A stretch of 29,448 nucleotides of DNA. Source: Gammaproteobacteria bacterium RBG_16_57_12. Its GTDB lineage: Bacteria; Pseudomonadota; Gammaproteobacteria; RBG-16-57-12. A program made the position numbers and the translations under genes. Positions 264-27,009 of this stretch are shown here, in pieces. Under the pieces are notes generated by a model. It worked only from the letters and a program-made list of their open reading frames with translations. It ran no database searches and had not been told where the DNA came from. The stretch is from assembly GCA_001801365.1 (NCBI GenBank), contig MGXL01000099.1, forward strand, positions 5,713 through 35,160. The letters run 5' to 3'. The first letter of the stretch is position 1. Each line of letters starts with the position of its first letter.

Positions 264-1625
264 GTGCGTAATCATTGTATCAAGGCCCTGTTGATCCTCT
301 CTTGCCTGCCGACGCCGGCGTACGCCGAAACCCTGAACCTGGATCAGGCCGTGCAGTTGGCCCTGACCGCCGACCAGCGCATCAAGGAGCGTGAGCATCT
401 GGTCGAGGCGGCGCGCTCCCTGTTGAGTGAGGTGACGGGCAACGAAGGTTTCACCGTGGATGCCAATGCCTTCGTGGCGTTGGCGCCGAGGGTCGACGGC
501 GGCTTCTATCGGGATAATCTGGTTACCTGTAATGGCGGCTGCGAACCCCGTTCCGATCTGTACGATATCGACGGGGTGGTGCCCTGGACCAACCTGTCGG
601 TGACCATCGTCAAGCCGCTCTACACCTTCGGTAAGATCGAGAACTATGCCGAAGCGGCACGCGGCAATATCGATATCAAGCAGGCCGATGTGACCCTGCA
701 GCGCGGCAATACCATCCTGGATGTGCACCGCGCCTATTACGGCTATCTGACGGCGCGGGAAACGCGCAAATTGCTGGCCGATGTCGAGCGGCGCATCGAC
801 AGCGCCCTGGAACTGGTGAATAAATGGCTGGCGGACGGCAGCGGCGATGTACGGATGTCCGACCGTTACGCCCTCGAGTCCGGGCTTGGCCTGGTGCGCA
901 GTTATCTGAGTCAGGCCGGGGCGGTGGAGCACATCGCGCTGGATGGTCTCAAGGTACTGACCGGCATCGGCATGGATAAGGAGCTGGAGGTGAGTGATAC
1001 CACCATCCGCCCGGTCGCGCTTCCGGAACAAGGACTGGCGGCCTTGCAGGAGCAGGCCCTCGCCAGGCGGCCGGAGATGATTCAGGTCGAGTCCGGTCTG
1101 CGCGCGCGCCGCTCTCTGGTGGCCGCCAGGGACGCGGAAGGCAAACCCAATATCTACGCCGGCATCGGGGCGCGGGCGGCCTATACCCCGGGCAGAGACA
1201 GCCTGGAAAATCCCCATGTGTTCGATATCTACAATCACGCCGGTTTGTCTCCGGTGCTGGGTATCAAGTGGGATTTCAACGGCGGGGTGAAGGATGCCAG
1301 GGTTGCGCAGGAGCAGGCGCAGCTGGAGGCCCTGCTGGCCACCGCCGCATTCGCCCGGCAGGGTATTCCCTACCAGGTATCGGAACAATATCTGAAGGTA
1401 CAGTCCAATTATGAGCGGACCCAGTCCCTGGAGGCGGGCAGCCGCGCGGGGCGGCGCTGGATGATCGGCACCTATGCCGATTTCGAGGCCGGACTGGAAA
1501 AGGCCGACAAGGTGATTACCGCCTTTCAGGGTTATGTGCTGGCGCATTCCGATTACCTGAAGACCGTTTATGATTACAATATGGATGTCGTGCGCCTGAA
1601 ATTTGTGACAGGAGAACTTCAATAA
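264..1625 (+). CDS. TolC-family outer-membrane channel protein in the mla operon
   Basis: 453 residues with two outer-membrane efflux protein (OEP) repeats, recognisable from the LNLDQAVQLAL start and the long alpha-helical segments around residues 120-220 and 250-450. The GTG start is preceded by GGAGG at the end of mlaD. The N-terminus is a signal peptide, probably cut after AYA at residues 19-21. Cys14 lies in a weak lipobox (ILSC), so a lipoprotein form cannot be excluded. TolC-family proteins form trimeric channels used by efflux pumps and type I secretion. No RND or MFP partner is visible here. The gene sits between mlaD and mlaC and its stop overlaps the mlaC start by one base, so it is co-transcribed with the lipid transport genes. 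The substrate is unknown. Confidence 0.85.
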   Translation: MRNHCIKALLILSCLPTPAYAETLNLDQAVQLALTADQRIKEREHLVEAARSLLSEVTGNEGFTVDANAFVALAPRVDGGFYRDNLVTCNGGCEPRSDLYDIDGVVPWTNLSVTIVKPLYTFGKIENYAEAARGNIDIKQADVTLQRGNTILDVHRAYYGYLTARETRKLLADVERRIDSALELVNKWLADGSGDVRMSDRYALESGLGLVRSYLSQAGAVEHIALDGLKVLTGIGMDKELEVSDTTIRPVALPEQGLAALQEQALARRPEMIQVESGLRARRSLVAARDAEGKPNIYAGIGARAAYTPGRDSLENPHVFDIYNHAGLSPVLGIKWDFNGGVKDARVAQEQAQLEALLATAAFARQGIPYQVSEQYLKVQSNYERTQSLEAGSRAGRRWMIGTYADFEAGLEKADKVITAFQGYVLAHSDYLKTVYDYNMDVVRLKFVTGELQ

Positions 1626-2534: not shown

Positions 2535-3464
2535 GTGACCTCCGCCGTCACCATCGCCGAGGTGCACAAGCACTATGGCGCGCTTTATGCCCTGCGCGGC
2601 ATCGACTTCGAGATTAAACAAGGTGAATTCTTTGGCCTGCTGGGACCCAATGGCGCCGGCAAGTCCACGCTGATCAACATCATGGCCGGCCTGACCTATG
2701 CCGATCGTGGGGCGGTCCGGATCAATGGTTTTGATGTGCGGCGCGACTACCGTCAGGCCCGCCGCGCCCTGGGCGTGGTGCCGCAGGAGCTGGTCTACGA
2801 TCCCTTTTTCGATGTGCGCGAAATGCTGCGCCTGCAATCGGGCTACTTTGGCTTCGGCCGGGAAAACCACGCCTGGATCGACGAATTGCTGGAGACGCTG
2901 AATCTGGGCGACAAGGCGGACGTCAACATGTATACCCTGTCGGGGGGCATGAAACGCCGGGTGCTGATCGCCCAGGCCATGGTGCACAAACCGCCGGTGC
3001 TGGTGCTGGATGAGCCGACCGCGGGGGTGGATGTGGAATTGCGCCAGATCCTGTGGCGGTTTGCCAGGCGCCTGCATCAGGACGGCCACACCATCGTCCT
3101 GACCACCCACTACCTGGAAGAGGCCGAACAATTGTGCGAGCGCATCGCCATACTCGATCAGGGTTCGATCTGCGCGCTGGATACCAAGCAGGCCCTGTTG
3201 TCGCGCAGTCCCTATCGCCGGGTCAGACTGACCCTGGCCGATGCGGCGATCGAGCTGCCGGAAAGTATTTTGCGCCTGGTGGAAGAGCGCGAAGCGCAGT
3301 CCATCACCCTGCGCCTGCACCGGTTGGATGACCAGTTGGGCGCGGTGCTGGAGGCAATGCACCAGTGCGGCGGCCGGCTGCTGGATGTGCATACCGTGGA
3401 GCCGGGACTGGAAGAGGTGTTCATGGAGCTGACCTGCCGCAAGCGTGGAGAGGTGGGCTGTTGA
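2535..3464 (+). CDS. ABC exporter ATPase, YadG family
   Basis: 309 residues with Walker A GPNGAGKST (37-45), an ABC signature LSGGMKRR, Walker B LVLDEPTAGVD and an H-loop in TTHYLEEAEQ. It resembles YadG/CcmA-type ABC-2 ATPases. It would power the membrane permease encoded at 5613-6380, which is normally the next gene. Here about 2.1 kb of accessory sequence lies between the two. The GTG start follows the mlaB stop without a gap. The exported substrate is unknown; the link with mla and envelope genes suggests an envelope role but does not prove it. The C-terminus (GEVGC) looks complete. Confidence 0.9.
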   Translation: MTSAVTIAEVHKHYGALYALRGIDFEIKQGEFFGLLGPNGAGKSTLINIMAGLTYADRGAVRINGFDVRRDYRQARRALGVVPQELVYDPFFDVREMLRLQSGYFGFGRENHAWIDELLETLNLGDKADVNMYTLSGGMKRRVLIAQAMVHKPPVLVLDEPTAGVDVELRQILWRFARRLHQDGHTIVLTTHYLEEAEQLCERIAILDQGSICALDTKQALLSRSPYRRVRLTLADAAIELPESILRLVEEREAQSITLRLHRLDDQLGAVLEAMHQCGGRLLDVHTVEPGLEEVFMELTCRKRGEVGC

Positions 3465-3663: not shown

Positions 3664-5136
3664 ATGCCCGCGACACGACTCAGAATATTCATCAGCAGTG
3701 TGCAAACGGAGTTTGCACAACAGCGGCTGGACCTGAAGGCATTTCTGCTGGGGGATGCCGTGTTGCGCCGTTTCGTGGCCGAGGTGTTTTTGTTTGAGGA
3801 ACTCCCCGCAAAGGATCGGCGCGCCGACCATGTCTATCTGGAAGAAGTCGAACGCTGCGACATCTACCTCGGTATCTTCGGCTATGAGTATGGCTTTGAG
3901 GACAAGAAGGGCATCTCCCCCACGGAGCACGAATATAATCATGCCACCCAACATGGCAAAATCCGTCTTGTGTACGTGTGGGGCTCAGAAGAGGAACGTC
4001 GCGCGCCGAAAATGCGCAGACTGGTCGTCAAGGCCAGCGGTGAATTGATCCGCCGCCGTATCGAAGACGCCAAGGCCCTGACCGCCGAGGTGTACGCCAG
4101 CCTCGTGGATTATCTCGACGAGATCGGCGCCCTGCGTGTTCCGCCTTTCGATACCACGGCCTGCGACAAGGCCACCCTGAAAGACCTGTCCCGCAAACGC
4201 ATCGACTGGTTCCTGGAAACCGCCCGCCGCGAGCGTGGCTTTCCGCTCAAGGCTAACACCGACTCCAAGGTACTGCTGACCCATCTCAACCTGCTTGACG
4301 ACGGTAAGCCCACCAACGCCGCCATGCTGTTGTTCGGCGCCAATCCGCAACGCTTCCACCGCACCGCCGAAACCAAGTGTATACACTGTCACGGCACGCA
4401 ATACCGCCGTCCCTTTGCCTCGCAACAAATCTATTCCGGCGACCTCTTCGAGCAGGCAAATCAGGCGCGCGATTTTGTGCTGGCGAAAATCAATCGTGCC
4501 GTCGGCACCCGCGCCACCAGCATCACCGCGCCGGCCACTTACGAACTGCCGCCCGACGCAGTGGGCGAGGCCATCGTCAACGCCATCGCGCACCGGGATT
4601 ACCACAGCAACGCCTCGGTCGAAGTCCGGCTGTTCGCCGATCGACTGGAAGTCTGGAATCCCGGTACGCTGCCCGGCACCTTGACGCTGGATAACCTGCG
4701 TGAAGCGCATCCTTCGGTGCCCAATAACCCGCTGATTGCCGAGTCGCTTTACCTCGCCCGCTACATCGAAAAGGCCGGGTCGGGCACCCTGCGCATAATC
4801 GAACTTTGCCAGGAAGCGGGACTGCCCGAACCGAGCTACGAACTACGCGCTGGCAGCTTTGTCATCACCCTGTGGCGTGACTGGCTGACCGCCGAAGTGC
4901 TGGCCAGGTTCCAGATCAATGACCGCCAACTGCAAGCAATTGCCTATGTCAAAGCGCGAGGCCAAATCACTAATCGGGAGTTCCGCGAGGCAACGGGGGT
5001 GATTGCCAGAACTGCCTCGCGCGACTTGGAAGACCTGGCCCATAAAGGCGTACTTGTAAAAGTCGGGGCCACGGGCCGCGGCACCTATTATGTTCTGGCG
5101 CACAAACCGGACATAATCCGGACAAACAGGACATAG
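3664..5136 (+). CDS. DUF4062 / HATPase_c_4 ATP-binding protein with C-terminal winged helix
   Basis: 490 residues. Residues 6-100 match DUF4062 (RIFISSVQTEF; FLFEELPA; YLEEVERCDIYLGIFGYEYG; SPTEHEYNHA). Residues about 200-300 resemble the segment that follows AlbA_2-type domains. Residues 294-395 form a GHKL-like ATP-binding module of the HATPase_c_4 type, with EAIVNAIAHRDY (302-313), DRLEVWNPGTLPG (326-338), NNPLIAESL and YIEKAGSGTLRI. The motif normally written RNP is NNP here. Residues 418-478 look like a winged helix. Such proteins are annotated as transcriptional regulators or RecG-like and are often found beside restriction or other defence genes; no function is proven. It lies in an inserted patch next to a truncated methyltransferase start, so a defence-associated role is an inference. 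Confidence 0.82.
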   Translation: MPATRLRIFISSVQTEFAQQRLDLKAFLLGDAVLRRFVAEVFLFEELPAKDRRADHVYLEEVERCDIYLGIFGYEYGFEDKKGISPTEHEYNHATQHGKIRLVYVWGSEEERRAPKMRRLVVKASGELIRRRIEDAKALTAEVYASLVDYLDEIGALRVPPFDTTACDKATLKDLSRKRIDWFLETARRERGFPLKANTDSKVLLTHLNLLDDGKPTNAAMLLFGANPQRFHRTAETKCIHCHGTQYRRPFASQQIYSGDLFEQANQARDFVLAKINRAVGTRATSITAPATYELPPDAVGEAIVNAIAHRDYHSNASVEVRLFADRLEVWNPGTLPGTLTLDNLREAHPSVPNNPLIAESLYLARYIEKAGSGTLRIIELCQEAGLPEPSYELRAGSFVITLWRDWLTAEVLARFQINDRQLQAIAYVKARGQITNREFREATGVIARTASRDLEDLAHKGVLVKVGATGRGTYYVLAHKPDIIRTNRT

Positions 5137-5395: not shown

Positions 5396-5623
5396 ATGGC
5401 CAAGAAACCCACATTCAAACTCAGCGTCGAAACCCTCAAGCACGGCGACGTCAGCCGCAAGAACATCCCCGCCGCCGAGAGAGGGGCCGGGGGTGTGGGA
5501 GCCGGGAGAAAGGGTGATTTTGAGCGAATCGGCCTCTTCGCCACGACTTTCGCTCCAGGCCGGCGCCACGGCGTTTCGAATCCCCCGGCACCCCCGGACC
5601 CCTTGGTGAACTATGCGGGCTAA
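5396..5623 (+). pseudogene. Truncated N-terminus of a DNA methyltransferase (type III Mod-like), fused to unrelated sequence
   Basis: The ATG has a good ribosome binding site (AGAGG at 5384-5388). Residues 1-28, starting MAKKPTFKLSVETL and ending RKNIPAAE, resemble the N-termini of site-specific DNA methyltransferases of type III restriction systems, which often start MAKK and carry a K-R-x-N-I-P-T/A-A/T-E motif. From about codon 29 the frame runs into a REP-like repeat and loses all similarity. It stays open to TAA at 5621-5623 and overlaps the permease start by 11 bases. No catalytic DPPY-type motif remains, so it is not functional as a methyltransferase. Family assignment rests on recall of this N-terminal motif and should be treated as likely, not certain. 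Confidence 0.5.
5475..5517 (-). repeat. REP-like repeat fragment
   Basis: On the minus strand this stretch reads CTCCCGGCTCCCACACCCCC then GGCCCCTCTCTCGGC and would translate as PHPRPLSRR. That string is the familiar by-product of dispersed GC-rich extragenic repeats in many proteobacteria. It starts exactly where the methyltransferase similarity stops, so it marks the breakpoint of the deletion or insertion. Copies elsewhere in the genome cannot be checked from this window. Confidence 0.45.
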
Positions 5624-6380
5624 CACCATCGGTTTCTACACCCTGTTCACCAAGGAGGTCTGGCGCTTTTTGAAAGTCATCACCCAGACCATTCTGACCC
5701 CGGCGGTGACGACACTGCTCTATCTGGTGGTGTTCGCCCAAATCCTGGAAGGAAGGGTGGAGGTCTATGAGGGCATTTCCTATGCCGCCTTCCTGGTGCC
5801 CGGTCTGGTGATCATGGCCATGATCCAGAATGCCTTTGCCAACAGCTCCTCGAGCCTCATCCAGTCGAAAATGAACGGCAATCTGGTGTTCGTGCTGCTG
5901 GCGCCGATCTCGGTGTGGGAATTCTATCTGGCCTTTGTGCTGGCCACCGTGGTGCGCGGCCTGCTGGTGGGCGCGGTGGTCTATGTGGCGGCGCTGTGGT
6001 TCGTGACCCTGCCGATCCATCATCCGGCTCTGGTGCTGCTGTTCGCCGTGGTGGGGAGCGCCATTCTGGGAGCTTTGGGGGTGATCGCCGGTATCTGGGC
6101 CTCCAAATATGATCAATTGGCGGCCTTCCAGAATTTCATTGTCCTGCCTCTGTCGTTTTTGAGCGGGGTGTTTTACTCCGTGCACACCCTGCCGCCCTTC
6201 TGGCAGCAGGCCACTTTCTGGAATCCGTTTTTTTACATGATCGACGGGTTTCGCCATGGCGTGATAGGTGTGTCCGATGTGGACCCCTGGAAAAGTCTGC
6301 TGGTGTGCCTGCTGTTTCTGGCGGTCGTCAGCGCCGTCTGTCTGGTCATGCTGAAAAAGGGTTACAAAATTCGCGGATAG
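5613..6380 (+). CDS. ABC-2 type exporter permease, YadH family
   Basis: 255 residues, close to the ~256 residues of E. coli YadH, with about six hydrophobic segments (near residues 22-45, 55-75, 105-135, 135-160, 168-190 and 225-247) and the ABC-2 signature region SFLSGVFYSVHTLPPFWQ..FWNPFFYMIDGFRHG. It is the membrane partner of the ATPase at 2535-3464. The start has no clear Shine-Dalgarno sequence (CCCCTTGGTGAACT before ATG), and a short open frame from 5396 overlaps it by 11 bases, so translation may now depend on coupling to that remnant. The protein itself looks intact. Confidence 0.9.
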   Translation: MRANTIGFYTLFTKEVWRFLKVITQTILTPAVTTLLYLVVFAQILEGRVEVYEGISYAAFLVPGLVIMAMIQNAFANSSSSLIQSKMNGNLVFVLLAPISVWEFYLAFVLATVVRGLLVGAVVYVAALWFVTLPIHHPALVLLFAVVGSAILGALGVIAGIWASKYDQLAAFQNFIVLPLSFLSGVFYSVHTLPPFWQQATFWNPFFYMIDGFRHGVIGVSDVDPWKSLLVCLLFLAVVSAVCLVMLKKGYKIRG

Positions 6381-23653: not shown

Positions 23654-24292
23654 TTATTCCAGTCCGGTTTTATCCGGGTATTCGCACAGATCTTCAATGA
23701 TACAGGAACCGCAGCGCGGTTTGCGCGCAACACAGGTGTAACGTCCGTGCAGGATTAGCCAGTGATGGGCATCCTGCCTGAATTCTCCCGGCACATACTT
23801 CAGTAATTTCCTTTCCACCTCCAGCACTGTCTTGCCTGGGGCGATGCCGGTACGGTTGGCCACCCGGAAGATATGCGTATCCACCGCAATGGTGGGCTGT
23901 CCGAAGGCGGTGTTCAGAATCACATTGGCGGTTTTGCGCCCTACTCCGGGCAGGGCTTCCAGCGCGGCACGATCGACCGGGACCTTGCCTTGATGCTGTT
24001 CTAGCAGGATTTGGCAGGTCTTGAGGATGTTGCCGGCCTTGCTGTTATACAGGCCGATGGTCCTGATGTAGCCCTTGAGGCCGTTCTCGCCCAGCTTCAG
24101 GATACTGGCGGGGGTATTGGCAACCTTGAACAAGGTGGCGGTGGCCTTGTTAACCGATTTATCAGTGGCTTGGGCCGAGAGTATCACCGCCACCAGCAAT
24201 TCAAAGGGGGTGGAGTAATGCAACTCGGTTGTCGGAGCGGGATTTTGCGCCCTGAAACGCCTGAAAATGTCTGTCCGCTTGGTTTTGTTCAT
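23654..24292 (-). CDS. nth: Endonuclease III
   Basis: 212 residues. The enzyme is a base excision repair glycosylase and AP lyase that removes oxidised pyrimidines. The catalytic Lys120 (LEALPGVGRKTANVIL, in the helix-hairpin-helix) and Asp138 (TIAVDTHIFRVANR) are at the same positions as in E. coli. The 4Fe-4S ligands Cys187, Cys194, Cys197 and Cys203 (C-x6-C-x2-C-x5-C) are intact. It is followed by the DUF1841 gene; the region upstream holds the DnaA-box cluster. Confidence 0.97.
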   Translation of the reverse strand: MNKTKRTDIFRRFRAQNPAPTTELHYSTPFELLVAVILSAQATDKSVNKATATLFKVANTPASILKLGENGLKGYIRTIGLYNSKAGNILKTCQILLEQHQGKVPVDRAALEALPGVGRKTANVILNTAFGQPTIAVDTHIFRVANRTGIAPGKTVLEVERKLLKYVPGEFRQDAHHWLILHGRYTCVARKPRCGSCIIEDLCEYPDKTGLE

Positions 24293-24326: not shown

Positions 24327-24671
24327 TGTGTATAAAACAGGCGGTTACTCTATCAGTTTGGTCCAGGCTGGTAAAAGGGACGCTGGGATACAGAATTGGA
24401 GGGATGGTTACCACAGAGATAGGCTACAGACAAGGACTTCTGATGAATTTTTTGAGTGATTATGCACAACAGGCGGTACGGCGCTGAAATTTTGACCGCA
24501 CATGAACAAAAACCTGACATTGATTCTGTAAAATTACATAACTATATGTTTATTATAAATAATATATGTAGCTCAATTTTTATACAGTTTAACAAAAATG
24601 TAATAATGGAGCCATTTTTTATGTTTTTCCCTGTGTTCATCCACAGACTTATCCACAGCTTCTGTGGGTAA
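24327..24671. promoter_or_regulatory. DnaA-box cluster beside an AT-rich segment
   Basis: Three perfect matches to the DnaA box TTATNCACA: TTATACACA on the minus strand (24327-24335), TTATGCACA (24460-24468) and TTATCCACA (24649-24657). Two near matches flank the last: TCATCCACA (24637-24645) and TTACCCACA on the minus strand (24663-24671), giving three boxes within 35 bases. Immediately to the left, 24541-24600 is about 83% A+T. Clusters with an AT-rich unwinding element are the usual layout of a bacterial origin, but they also occur in DnaA titration sites and promoters. dnaA and dnaN are not in the window. The 506-base gap (24293-24798) holds no gene that I can support. Confidence 0.6.
24520..24630. 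other. AT-rich stretch, possible DNA unwinding element
   Basis: A run of mostly A and T, with the short palindrome TATTATAAATAATA near 24550-24565 and no coding potential. It contrasts sharply with the surrounding GC-rich genes. Placed between the DnaA boxes at 24460 and 24637, it could be the melting region of an origin, or simply promoter and spacer sequence. No IHF or Fis site was sought by matrix. Confidence 0.4.
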
Positions 24672-24798
24672 GTCCACATCTCTTTATTCCCACAATGAGT
24701 TAGCTGACTTATCCTAGAAACAGTCTCAAACACTACGTCTAACTTGAGCATTTTCAGCTCATGATGCTCGCTGGTTTTTGAAGTGCTAGAGTAGCGCG

Positions 24799-27009
24799 AT
24801 GCCTGAACCCCCATTGATCCTGCGCGTGGCGGTGCCTTCACCGTTGCGGCGGGTGTTCGACTATCTGCCGCCGAAAAAATGCCAGATCACTGACTGGCCC
24901 GTGGGTATTCGCCTGCGGGTGCCGTTTGGTCGCACGCGAATGATCGGTGTTCTGGTGGGGGTGGCCACGCAAAGCGACATACCCCGCGACAGGCTCAAGG
25001 CCGTGATCGAGGTTCTGGATCATGAGCCACTCTTGCCCAAGGATATCCTGGCGCTGCTGGAATGGAGCAGTGGTTATTACCATCACCCGCTGGGTGAAGT
25101 GATCGAGACAGCGCTGCCGGTTGCGCTGCGTCAGGGCCGGCCGGCGGAAATACGCGGAGAATCCACCTGGGGGTTGACCGGGACCGGCAGGCAAGGTGAT
25201 GTGGCGACATTGCAGCACGCCCCCAGACAGGCGGGGCTGATTCAGGCCTTGCGTGAAGCTGCGGCCGGATTGAAGGCGGAACAGCTTGATCGCACCTTCC
25301 AGGCCTGGCGGCCCGCCATGAGCCGGCTGGTTGAAAAGGGGTGGGTGGAGCTTGTTCAGGCGCCTTGCCTGGGGCGCGAAGAGGCCGCGCGCGAGAGTCC
25401 CCCTCGGTTGAACGCCGATCAGGCCGCCGCCGTCACCGCCGTCACCGAGACGCTGGGAAGCTATCAGGCCTTCGTGCTGGACGGCATCACCGGCAGTGGC
25501 AAGACCGAGGTGTATCTGGCCCTGGCCGAGCAGGTGTTAGCCGGCGGTGGGCAGGTGCTGGTGCTGGTGCCGGAGATCGGCCTGGCGCCGCAGATCGTGG
25601 CGCGTTTTCAACAGCGCTTTGCATTGCCCATCGCCGTGCTGCACTCCGGCCTGAGTGACCAGGAGCGCCTGTGCGCCTGGCTGATGGCCAGATCGGGTGA
25701 GGCGCCGATCGTGATCGGCACCCGTTCGGCGGTGTTCACGCCGCTGCTGACGCCCGGTTTGATCATCGTGGATGAGGAACATGATCCTTCCTTCAAGCAA
25801 CAGGAAGGCTTTCGCTATTCTGCCCGTGATATCGCCGTGATACGTGCCCGTAATCACCGGATACCCATTGTGCTGGGAACCGCCACACCGTCCCTGGAGA
25901 GTACCTACAACATCCAGCAGGCACGCTACCGGCAGCTACGCCTGACCCGGCGCGCCGGCAGTGCGCAACTGCCCAGGATCAGTCTGCTGGATGTGCGGGG
26001 CCAGACCCTGCACGGGGGGCTGTCGGCGCCGTTGCTCAAGGCCATGGAGGCGCACCTGGTGCGCGGTGAACAGGTCTTGCTGTTTCTCAATCGCCGTGGT
26101 TATGCCCCGACCCTGCTCTGTCATGAATGCGGCTGGGTGGCCGACTGCAAACGCTGTGACGCGCATCTGATCCTGCACCGACGCCGGCAGCGGCTGTGCT
26201 GTCATCACTGCGGCGCGGAACGCCCCGTGGAAAGACAATGCCCGGCCTGCGGCAGTGCCGACCTGGTAAGCGTGGGGCAGGGTACGGAGCGGGTGGAGTC
26301 GGTATTGCGGGAGCGCTTCCCCTCGATCGGCATCGCGCGGGTCGATCGTGACACCACCCGGCGCAAGGGCAGCCTGCAAAATCTGCTCGATGGGATTCAG
26401 GACGGCACCTCGCAACTGCTGATCGGCACCCAGATGCTGGCCAAGGGGCATCACTTTCCCAATGTCACCCTGGTGGGCATCCTGGAGGCGGAGCAGGGCC
26501 TGTACAGCAGCGATTTTCGCGCCGGCGAGCGCATGGCACAGCTCATCATGCAGGTGGCGGGCCGGGCCGGCCGCGCCGAACAACCGGGGCAGGTGCTGGT
26601 GCAGACCCACCATCCCGATCATCCGCTCTTGTGGTCGCTGATTCAGGGTGACTACCCGGGCATTGCCGGCGCCCTGCTGGAGGAGCGCCGCCAGGCCGAG
26701 TTGCCGCCCTGCAGCGCCATGGCGCTGTTACGCGCCGAAGCCGCGCAAGAAGTTCCGGCCATGCACTTTCTCGAGCAGGTCAGGGATGAGGCCCTGGCCC
26801 TGAAGATACGCGGTGCGCAGATCCTGGGACCGGTGCCGGCCCCCATGGAACGGCGTGCCGGCCGCTACCGGGTGCAATTGCTGATGCAGGCGGGCAAACG
26901 TCAGGCCCTGCATCGACTGCTGGACCAGTTGCTGCCGTTGATTGAAAAACTCCCAAGTGCCCGCAAGGTGCGCTGGTCCCTCGATGTTGATCCCGTGGAT
27001 ACGTATTGA
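24799..27009 (+). CDS. priA: Primosomal protein N' (replication restart helicase PriA)
   Basis: 736 residues. The 3'-DNA-binding domain (residues 1-110), then a superfamily 2 helicase core with Walker A GITGSGKT (229-236) and a DEEH box in IIVDEEHDPSFKQQ, followed by the zinc-binding insertion with eight cysteines (CHECGWVADCKRC and CCHHCG..CPACG) and motifs V-VI (GTQMLAKGHHFPNVTLV, QVAGRAGRAEQPG). PriA reloads the replisome at stalled forks and D-loops. The start has no strong ribosome binding site. The gap upstream carries the DnaA boxes. Confidence 0.97.
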   Translation: MPEPPLILRVAVPSPLRRVFDYLPPKKCQITDWPVGIRLRVPFGRTRMIGVLVGVATQSDIPRDRLKAVIEVLDHEPLLPKDILALLEWSSGYYHHPLGEVIETALPVALRQGRPAEIRGESTWGLTGTGRQGDVATLQHAPRQAGLIQALREAAAGLKAEQLDRTFQAWRPAMSRLVEKGWVELVQAPCLGREEAARESPPRLNADQAAAVTAVTETLGSYQAFVLDGITGSGKTEVYLALAEQVLAGGGQVLVLVPEIGLAPQIVARFQQRFALPIAVLHSGLSDQERLCAWLMARSGEAPIVIGTRSAVFTPLLTPGLIIVDEEHDPSFKQQEGFRYSARDIAVIRARNHRIPIVLGTATPSLESTYNIQQARYRQLRLTRRAGSAQLPRISLLDVRGQTLHGGLSAPLLKAMEAHLVRGEQVLLFLNRRGYAPTLLCHECGWVADCKRCDAHLILHRRRQRLCCHHCGAERPVERQCPACGSADLVSVGQGTERVESVLRERFPSIGIARVDRDTTRRKGSLQNLLDGIQDGTSQLLIGTQMLAKGHHFPNVTLVGILEAEQGLYSSDFRAGERMAQLIMQVAGRAGRAEQPGQVLVQTHHPDHPLLWSLIQGDYPGIAGALLEERRQAELPPCSAMALLRAEAAQEVPAMHFLEQVRDEALALKIRGAQILGPVPAPMERRAGRYRVQLLMQAGKRQALHRLLDQLLPLIEKLPSARKVRWSLDVDPVDTY

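Follow-up and report, generated by a model that had tools for sequence, protein, structure and literature searches.

The intergenic element at positions 24460-24671 of the window, that is, of the whole stretch of 29,448 nucleotides analysed, is likely to be a DARS-type DnaA-reactivating sequence with a compact, rearranged IHF/Fis arm. As far as the sequence goes, it has the structure by which a DARS is defined and consists of a DARS core, a same-strand DnaA box some 18 helical turns upstream of it and, in the interval, Fis and IHF-like sites. The window lies on C99 of a draft genome of 1.98 Mb in 148 contigs, which is 86% complete. How DARS control DnaA is established for E. coli, with homologues described in its nearer relatives; a strict and readable layout shared by roughly half of the genomes sampled from the class would open the recharging of DnaA from the ADP to the ATP form to testing far more widely, and would show where the recharging site should be sought in a new genome. 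In addition, the natural rearrangement of the IHF/Fis arm offers a test of how DARS2 is switched on and off, and the locus would lose a false origin call.

The element between nth and priA

The DnaA-box cluster lies in the gap between nth and priA, which are divergently transcribed, so neither gene reads through the element (Table 1). Transcription through a DARS has been reported to be harmful to it in E. coli (PMC5010248), and a site between divergent genes fits this report. The three perfect TTATNCACA boxes and the two boxes with one mismatch are at the positions given in the earlier note, three of the five lying within 35 bp (24637-24671), and the A+T-rich stretch described there was recovered as well, the richest 100 bp starting at 24529 with 83% A+T. 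The cluster is real and far beyond chance, as had been claimed: the whole window contains 4 perfect boxes against 0.47 expected, a number reached in 0/100 shuffles, three perfect boxes within 345 bp were seen in 0/2000 Markov replicates of the window, and at least three in 0/20000 replicates of the local A+T-rich 506 bp. However, the box at 24327, which had been counted as a member of the cluster, was rejected as a part of the element, since no other of the 112 related cores compared has a perfect reverse box at this offset.

Table 1. Features of the nth-priA locus and the second copy of the element (window positions unless another contig is named)
Feature	Position	Strand	Remarks
nth (endonuclease III)	23654..24292	-	PF00730, PF10576; left neighbour, transcription directed away from the element
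Perfect DnaA box TTATACACA	24327..24335	-	upstream of nth; outside the conserved element
Distal DnaA box TTATGCACA	24460..24468	+	perfect; 189 bp upstream of box II, same strand
A+T-rich spacer, distal box to core	24520..24625		81% A+T
IHF-like site TAACTATATGTTT	24539..24551	+	weak, two mismatches to TAAnnnnTTGATW; offset -110
Fis consensus site GCTCAATTTTTATAC	24571..24585	+	GnnYAnnnnnTRnnC, no mismatch; offset -78
Core DnaA box III TCATCCACA	24637..24645	+	one mismatch
Core DnaA box II TTATCCACA	24649..24657	+	perfect
Core DnaA box I TTACCCACA	24663..24671	-	one mismatch; opposite orientation
One-mismatch box TTATTCCCA	24684..24692	+	
priA (primosomal protein N')	24799..27009	+	PF17764, PF18074; right neighbour, transcription directed away from the element
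Second element copy	L118 (C14) 1275-1489		hemF / GGDEF gene gap; perfect Fis site, one-mismatch IHF site

The core is composed of box III, 3 bp, box II, 5 bp and the inverted box I. DARS are defined in the literature by boxes I-III that are equally spaced in DARS1 and DARS2, with box I opposite to II and III (PMC5742627; PMC8682772), and the window element has three boxes at precisely this spacing with box I inverted; spacing and orientation are identical in the window, in the C14 copy and in DARS1 and DARS2 of E. coli. When a 31-nt core pattern was scanned over the draft genome with up to three mismatches allowed, it was found at two places, both perfect, and the reversed pattern used as a control at none. 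The second place (C14:1455-1485) lies between hemF and a GGDEF gene, and each copy is preceded by a same-strand TTATGCACA at a distance of about 190 bp. The same genome encodes dnaA (PF00308), a Fis homologue (E = 3e-17), and Hda and IHF-alpha, both above the cut-off.

The arm on the box III side was compared in 112 distinct cores with up to two mismatches and at least 300 bp of upstream sequence, three short ones being dropped, and offsets were counted from box II, negative on the box III side. These cores are a subset of the finds of the class-wide scan described below; they come from PriA loci, 30 loci of that scan and 60 further stretches, with two from the own genome, and are therefore a priA-biased set. 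In the window, the distal box is at -189, the IHF-like site (two mismatches) at -110 and the perfect Fis site at -78; in the C14 copy the corresponding offsets are -192, -111 (IHF, one mismatch) and -79 (Fis, perfect). A perfect same-strand TTATNCACA stands 180-201 bp upstream of box II in 79/112 cores (78 of them at 185-201), and nine forward and three reverse boxes occur elsewhere in the 700 bp; with the published consensus TTWTNCACA, the distal box is present at -205..-180 in 86/112. The IHF consensus with at most one mismatch was found at -125..-100 in 61/112 cores, and the Fis consensus at -84..-72 in 93/112 with at most one mismatch and in 47/112 without any, compared with 0-5/112 perfect Fis matches in 30 control windows. 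Distal box, IHF and Fis sites occur together in 46/112 cores, whereas the mirrored side gives a distal box in 1, IHF in 1, Fis in 13 and all three in 0. Moreover, the mean G + C across the 112 cores falls to 0.19 at -100.

A profile was built from 77 elements of other genomes, with 13 reversed sequences as a control. It matched the window at 24456-24675 (E = 4.3e-28), and with the core removed it still matched the arm alone (24456-24601, E = 1.3e-11); none of the 13 reversed sequences gave a match, and the elements of same-family genomes, which were outside the training set, also scored.

Spread and genomic placement

In the class, 205 of the 369 genomes sampled contain the 31-nt core with up to two mismatches, many of them twice, against 0/369 for the reversed pattern; the remaining 164 genomes gave no match to the core pattern. 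In a phylum sample of 299 genomes the core was found in 103 and control matches in 2, and the matches outside the class are concentrated in a few families, f200 above all, with none in several well-sampled families. Among class genomes without a Fis match the core is present in 13/48, compared with 192/321 of those with Fis (p = 3e-5, a value that ignores kinship and completeness).

The genomic neighbours of the element vary. Among the 112 cores, rpmE is nearby in 13, and hemW in 8 and rimO in 5 according to the reading of translations. Three genomes of the same family contain five elements, one or two per genome, of which two are beside lgt, one beside uvrB and two beside mutS/ppc (translation reading; one of the latter is on a short contig showing ppc only). 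In five single-contig genomes, the distance of the two elements from dnaA is 0.04-0.35 of the genome length. In G001 the element is at the opposite end of uvrB; there and also in G003 it is followed by lgt, as near DARS2 but closer, so synteny with the E. coli DARS loci is only partial, one core of G253 matching the DARS1 position. The priA and rpmE genes are adjacent and divergent in E. coli, so that the priA and rpmE copies of the element may have arisen from one site.

Multiple or overlapping cores were also seen. Upstream of priA in G008 (L101), two complete cores are in tandem 272 bp apart, at 1042 and 1314, each with a box at about -190, and close core pairs occur also in G233, G234 and G521. 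At G404:C13:38655-38701 two cores on opposite strands overlap as one palindrome-like box array. Furthermore, a long inverted repeat was recognized by eye at 7690-7745 of L115 (C53), with TTATCCACA at each end, in opposite orientation and with starts 41 bp apart.

Comparison with DARS1 and DARS2 of E. coli

A scan of E. coli K-12 gave the same geometry at DARS1 (bioD-uvrB), with three mismatches to the pattern. In the rppH-mutH gap, where DARS2 is located, two places with six mismatches each were found, one at L153:7140 and the other containing a perfect TTATCCACA at L153:7466. The former, L153:7136-7170, was taken as the probable DARS2 core, because its three one-mismatch boxes, its IHF pair and a perfect box V surrounded by Fis sites agree best with what has been published on DARS2. 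All three of its boxes are one mismatch from TTWTNCACA; the box III side has a pair of IHF consensus sites (-99 and -83, spanning -99..-71) separated by 3 bp, and the perfect box at -197, with Fis-like sites around it, matches box V. With this core, the window element is closer to DARS2: the core spacing is the same, and IHF, Fis and a perfect DnaA box are all on the box III side. The order, however, is different. The Fis matches of DARS2 overlap or flank box V beyond IHF (-225..-171), whereas the Fis site of the window is between IHF and the core; in addition, box V is inverted, while the distal box of the window is oriented as box II. The window has a perfect Fis site and an IHF-like site of two mismatches, both conserved in relatives, on the DARS2 side but not in the DARS2 order. 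DARS2 is reported to be activated by IHF plus Fis (PMC4245941; PMC8682772), and ATP-DnaA assembling from box V to displace Fis from overlapping sites in E. coli (PMC8682772).

With DARS1, the window shares the three-box core in identical spacing and orientation. Unlike the window, DARS1 of E. coli has no Fis match near -78, and its arm is limited to an IHF-like site with two mismatches (-111) and a degenerate TTATCCCCA further out, at -209; it is reported to be 101 bp long, with some 50 bp of accessory region (PMC5742627). On the other hand, the uvrB-linked core of G253, which has the gene and the side of DARS1, carries the full arm, namely an IHF site without mismatch at -112, a Fis site with one mismatch at -78 and TTTTACACA at -192. 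This core, outside the training set, matched the profile with E = 2.9e-16, the arm alone giving a weak 0.15. The profile gave a weak match to E. coli DARS1 (E = 5.9e-4) that was longer than the core itself, and one to DARS2 at the L153:7136-7170 core without significance (0.37).

Homologues of DARS2 with conserved core, IHF and Fis sites are reported from E. coli-proximal beta- and gamma-proteobacteria (PMC5742627; PMC8682772), the list in one figure legend (Fig. 8) naming seven species besides E. coli, including Vibrio and Shewanella (PMC8682772), and DARS-like sequences are reported for Vibrio cholerae at locations matching those of E. coli (PMC6090056). In the accessible text of these sources nothing was found on wider families or on the arm arrangement of the window. 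Likewise, a search of the accessible literature gave no description of a DARS at priA or of the arm layout of the window.

Readings of the element and proposed action

The earlier note had left three options, of which the DARS-type one gained from the core geometry, the class-wide recurrence and the IHF/Fis sites. A displaced or second chromosomal origin, to which DnaA boxes beside a stretch of 83% A+T could point, is very improbable. The note was correct that dnaA is absent near the element: it is on another contig, in the order rpmH-dnaA-dnaN-recF-gyrB as read from translations, and a DnaA-box cluster of its own lies between dnaA and dnaN on C43, where oriC of this genome probably is. The GC skew, a check named by the note, does not change sign at the element, which accordingly shows neither of the marks of oriC, a skew switch or linkage to dnaA. 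In a complete relative, G037, the sign switches at dnaA, at 574 kb, and the priA core, 254 kb away at 828 kb, shows no switch; G022 agrees more weakly; moreover, two or more core copies per genome are common, which is against an origin. On the skew, the box cluster on C43 and the G037 switch, the displaced origin was rejected, and the site is probably not a replication origin. The position of the element is that of a DARS, being intergenic and away from oriC inasmuch as it is on a different contig from dnaA in a draft of 148 contigs. A region for DnaA-controlled promotion of priA (or nth), the third option, is improbable too. In its favour, PriA is found within 1.8 kb downstream of 51/112 cores, although 24 of these were fetched through PriA, and 19/30 priA loci of relatives, the own genome included, carry the core with up to 5 mismatches. 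Against it, 27/88 cores not fetched through PriA are at priA (a slight undercount, duplicates being collapsed), and since most pattern-fetched cores thus lie away from priA, the promoter option is weakened. The element also adjoins rpmE, hemF, lgt and uvrB, the distance from the core to the start of the PriA match varies from 36 to 379 bp (excepting one tandem copy and one distant match), and promoter-like sites are at chance level.

A rather unlikely alternative is a datA-type site, where a loop formed by same-strand boxes on both sides of an IHF site would hydrolyse DnaA-bound ATP or titrate DnaA. In E. coli datA, a perfect IHF site lies between two perfect boxes of its own strand, 162 bp from each other, an arrangement that resembles the distal box, IHF and box II part of the window; looping by IHF is believed to connect boxes 2 and 3 of datA (PMC5742627). 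The window element therefore contains a datA-like subset of sites, from which by analogy a mixed DARS/datA role may follow. However, the most conserved part of the element is the inverted three-box core, which datA lacks, its inverted box being 12 bp, not 14, from the neighbouring box and its box spacing 162 bp against about 190 bp. Furthermore, the essential boxes of datA are reported to be all of one orientation (PMC5742627), while in the window box I is inverted at DARS spacing, and the profile score of datA is not significant (E = 0.13). The DARS-type reading draws on the shared core geometry, the recurrence in 205/369 genomes, the conservation of the arm, the profile matches, the arm of G253 and the presence of dnaA, Hda, Fis and IHF-alpha, as well as on the rarity of cores in genomes without a Fis match. 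Against this reading are the two mismatches of the IHF-like site in the window, the place of Fis on the core side of IHF and a distal box opposite to box V, the weak or non-significant profile scores of DARS1 and DARS2 together with the weak arm of G253, and the lack of a priA-linked copy in the three same-family genomes (0/3 loci with up to 5 mismatches) and of a pattern match in 164/369 genomes of the class.

As a DARS-type site, the element would work as follows. On boxes I and II, ADP-DnaA would be bound in head-to-head fashion, with box III alongside; IHF would bend the A+T-rich spacer and Fis would bind between the IHF bend and the core, so that DnaA bound at the distal box would be brought close to the oligomer on the core. 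ADP would be released, and apo-DnaA would depart and bind ATP, able to start replication at oriC elsewhere. The distal box may serve as a sensor like box V of DARS2, shutting the site off when ATP-DnaA is plentiful; because Fis is far from the distal box, a feedback by Fis displacement as in DARS2 is predicted to act through the loop.

A wider proposal, possible though doubtful, sees in the four-site element (distal box, IHF, Fis and inverted core) the ancestral form of the DnaA-recharging switch of gammaproteobacteria, frequently present twice per genome and frequently located at priA or rpmE. DARS1 would then be a descendant that lost the arm, which its uvrB-linked relative keeps; DARS2 would have arisen by an outward shift of the Fis sites together with a reversal of the distal box, giving box V, and datA would be derived from the IHF-looped arm.

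Elsewhere in the window, an ABC ATPase (2535-3464) and an ABC-2 permease (5613-6380) look like one transporter operon, and between them, as if inserted, is a plus-strand gene (3664-5136) with DUF4062 and RecG-C-terminal-like (HATPase_c_4) domains.
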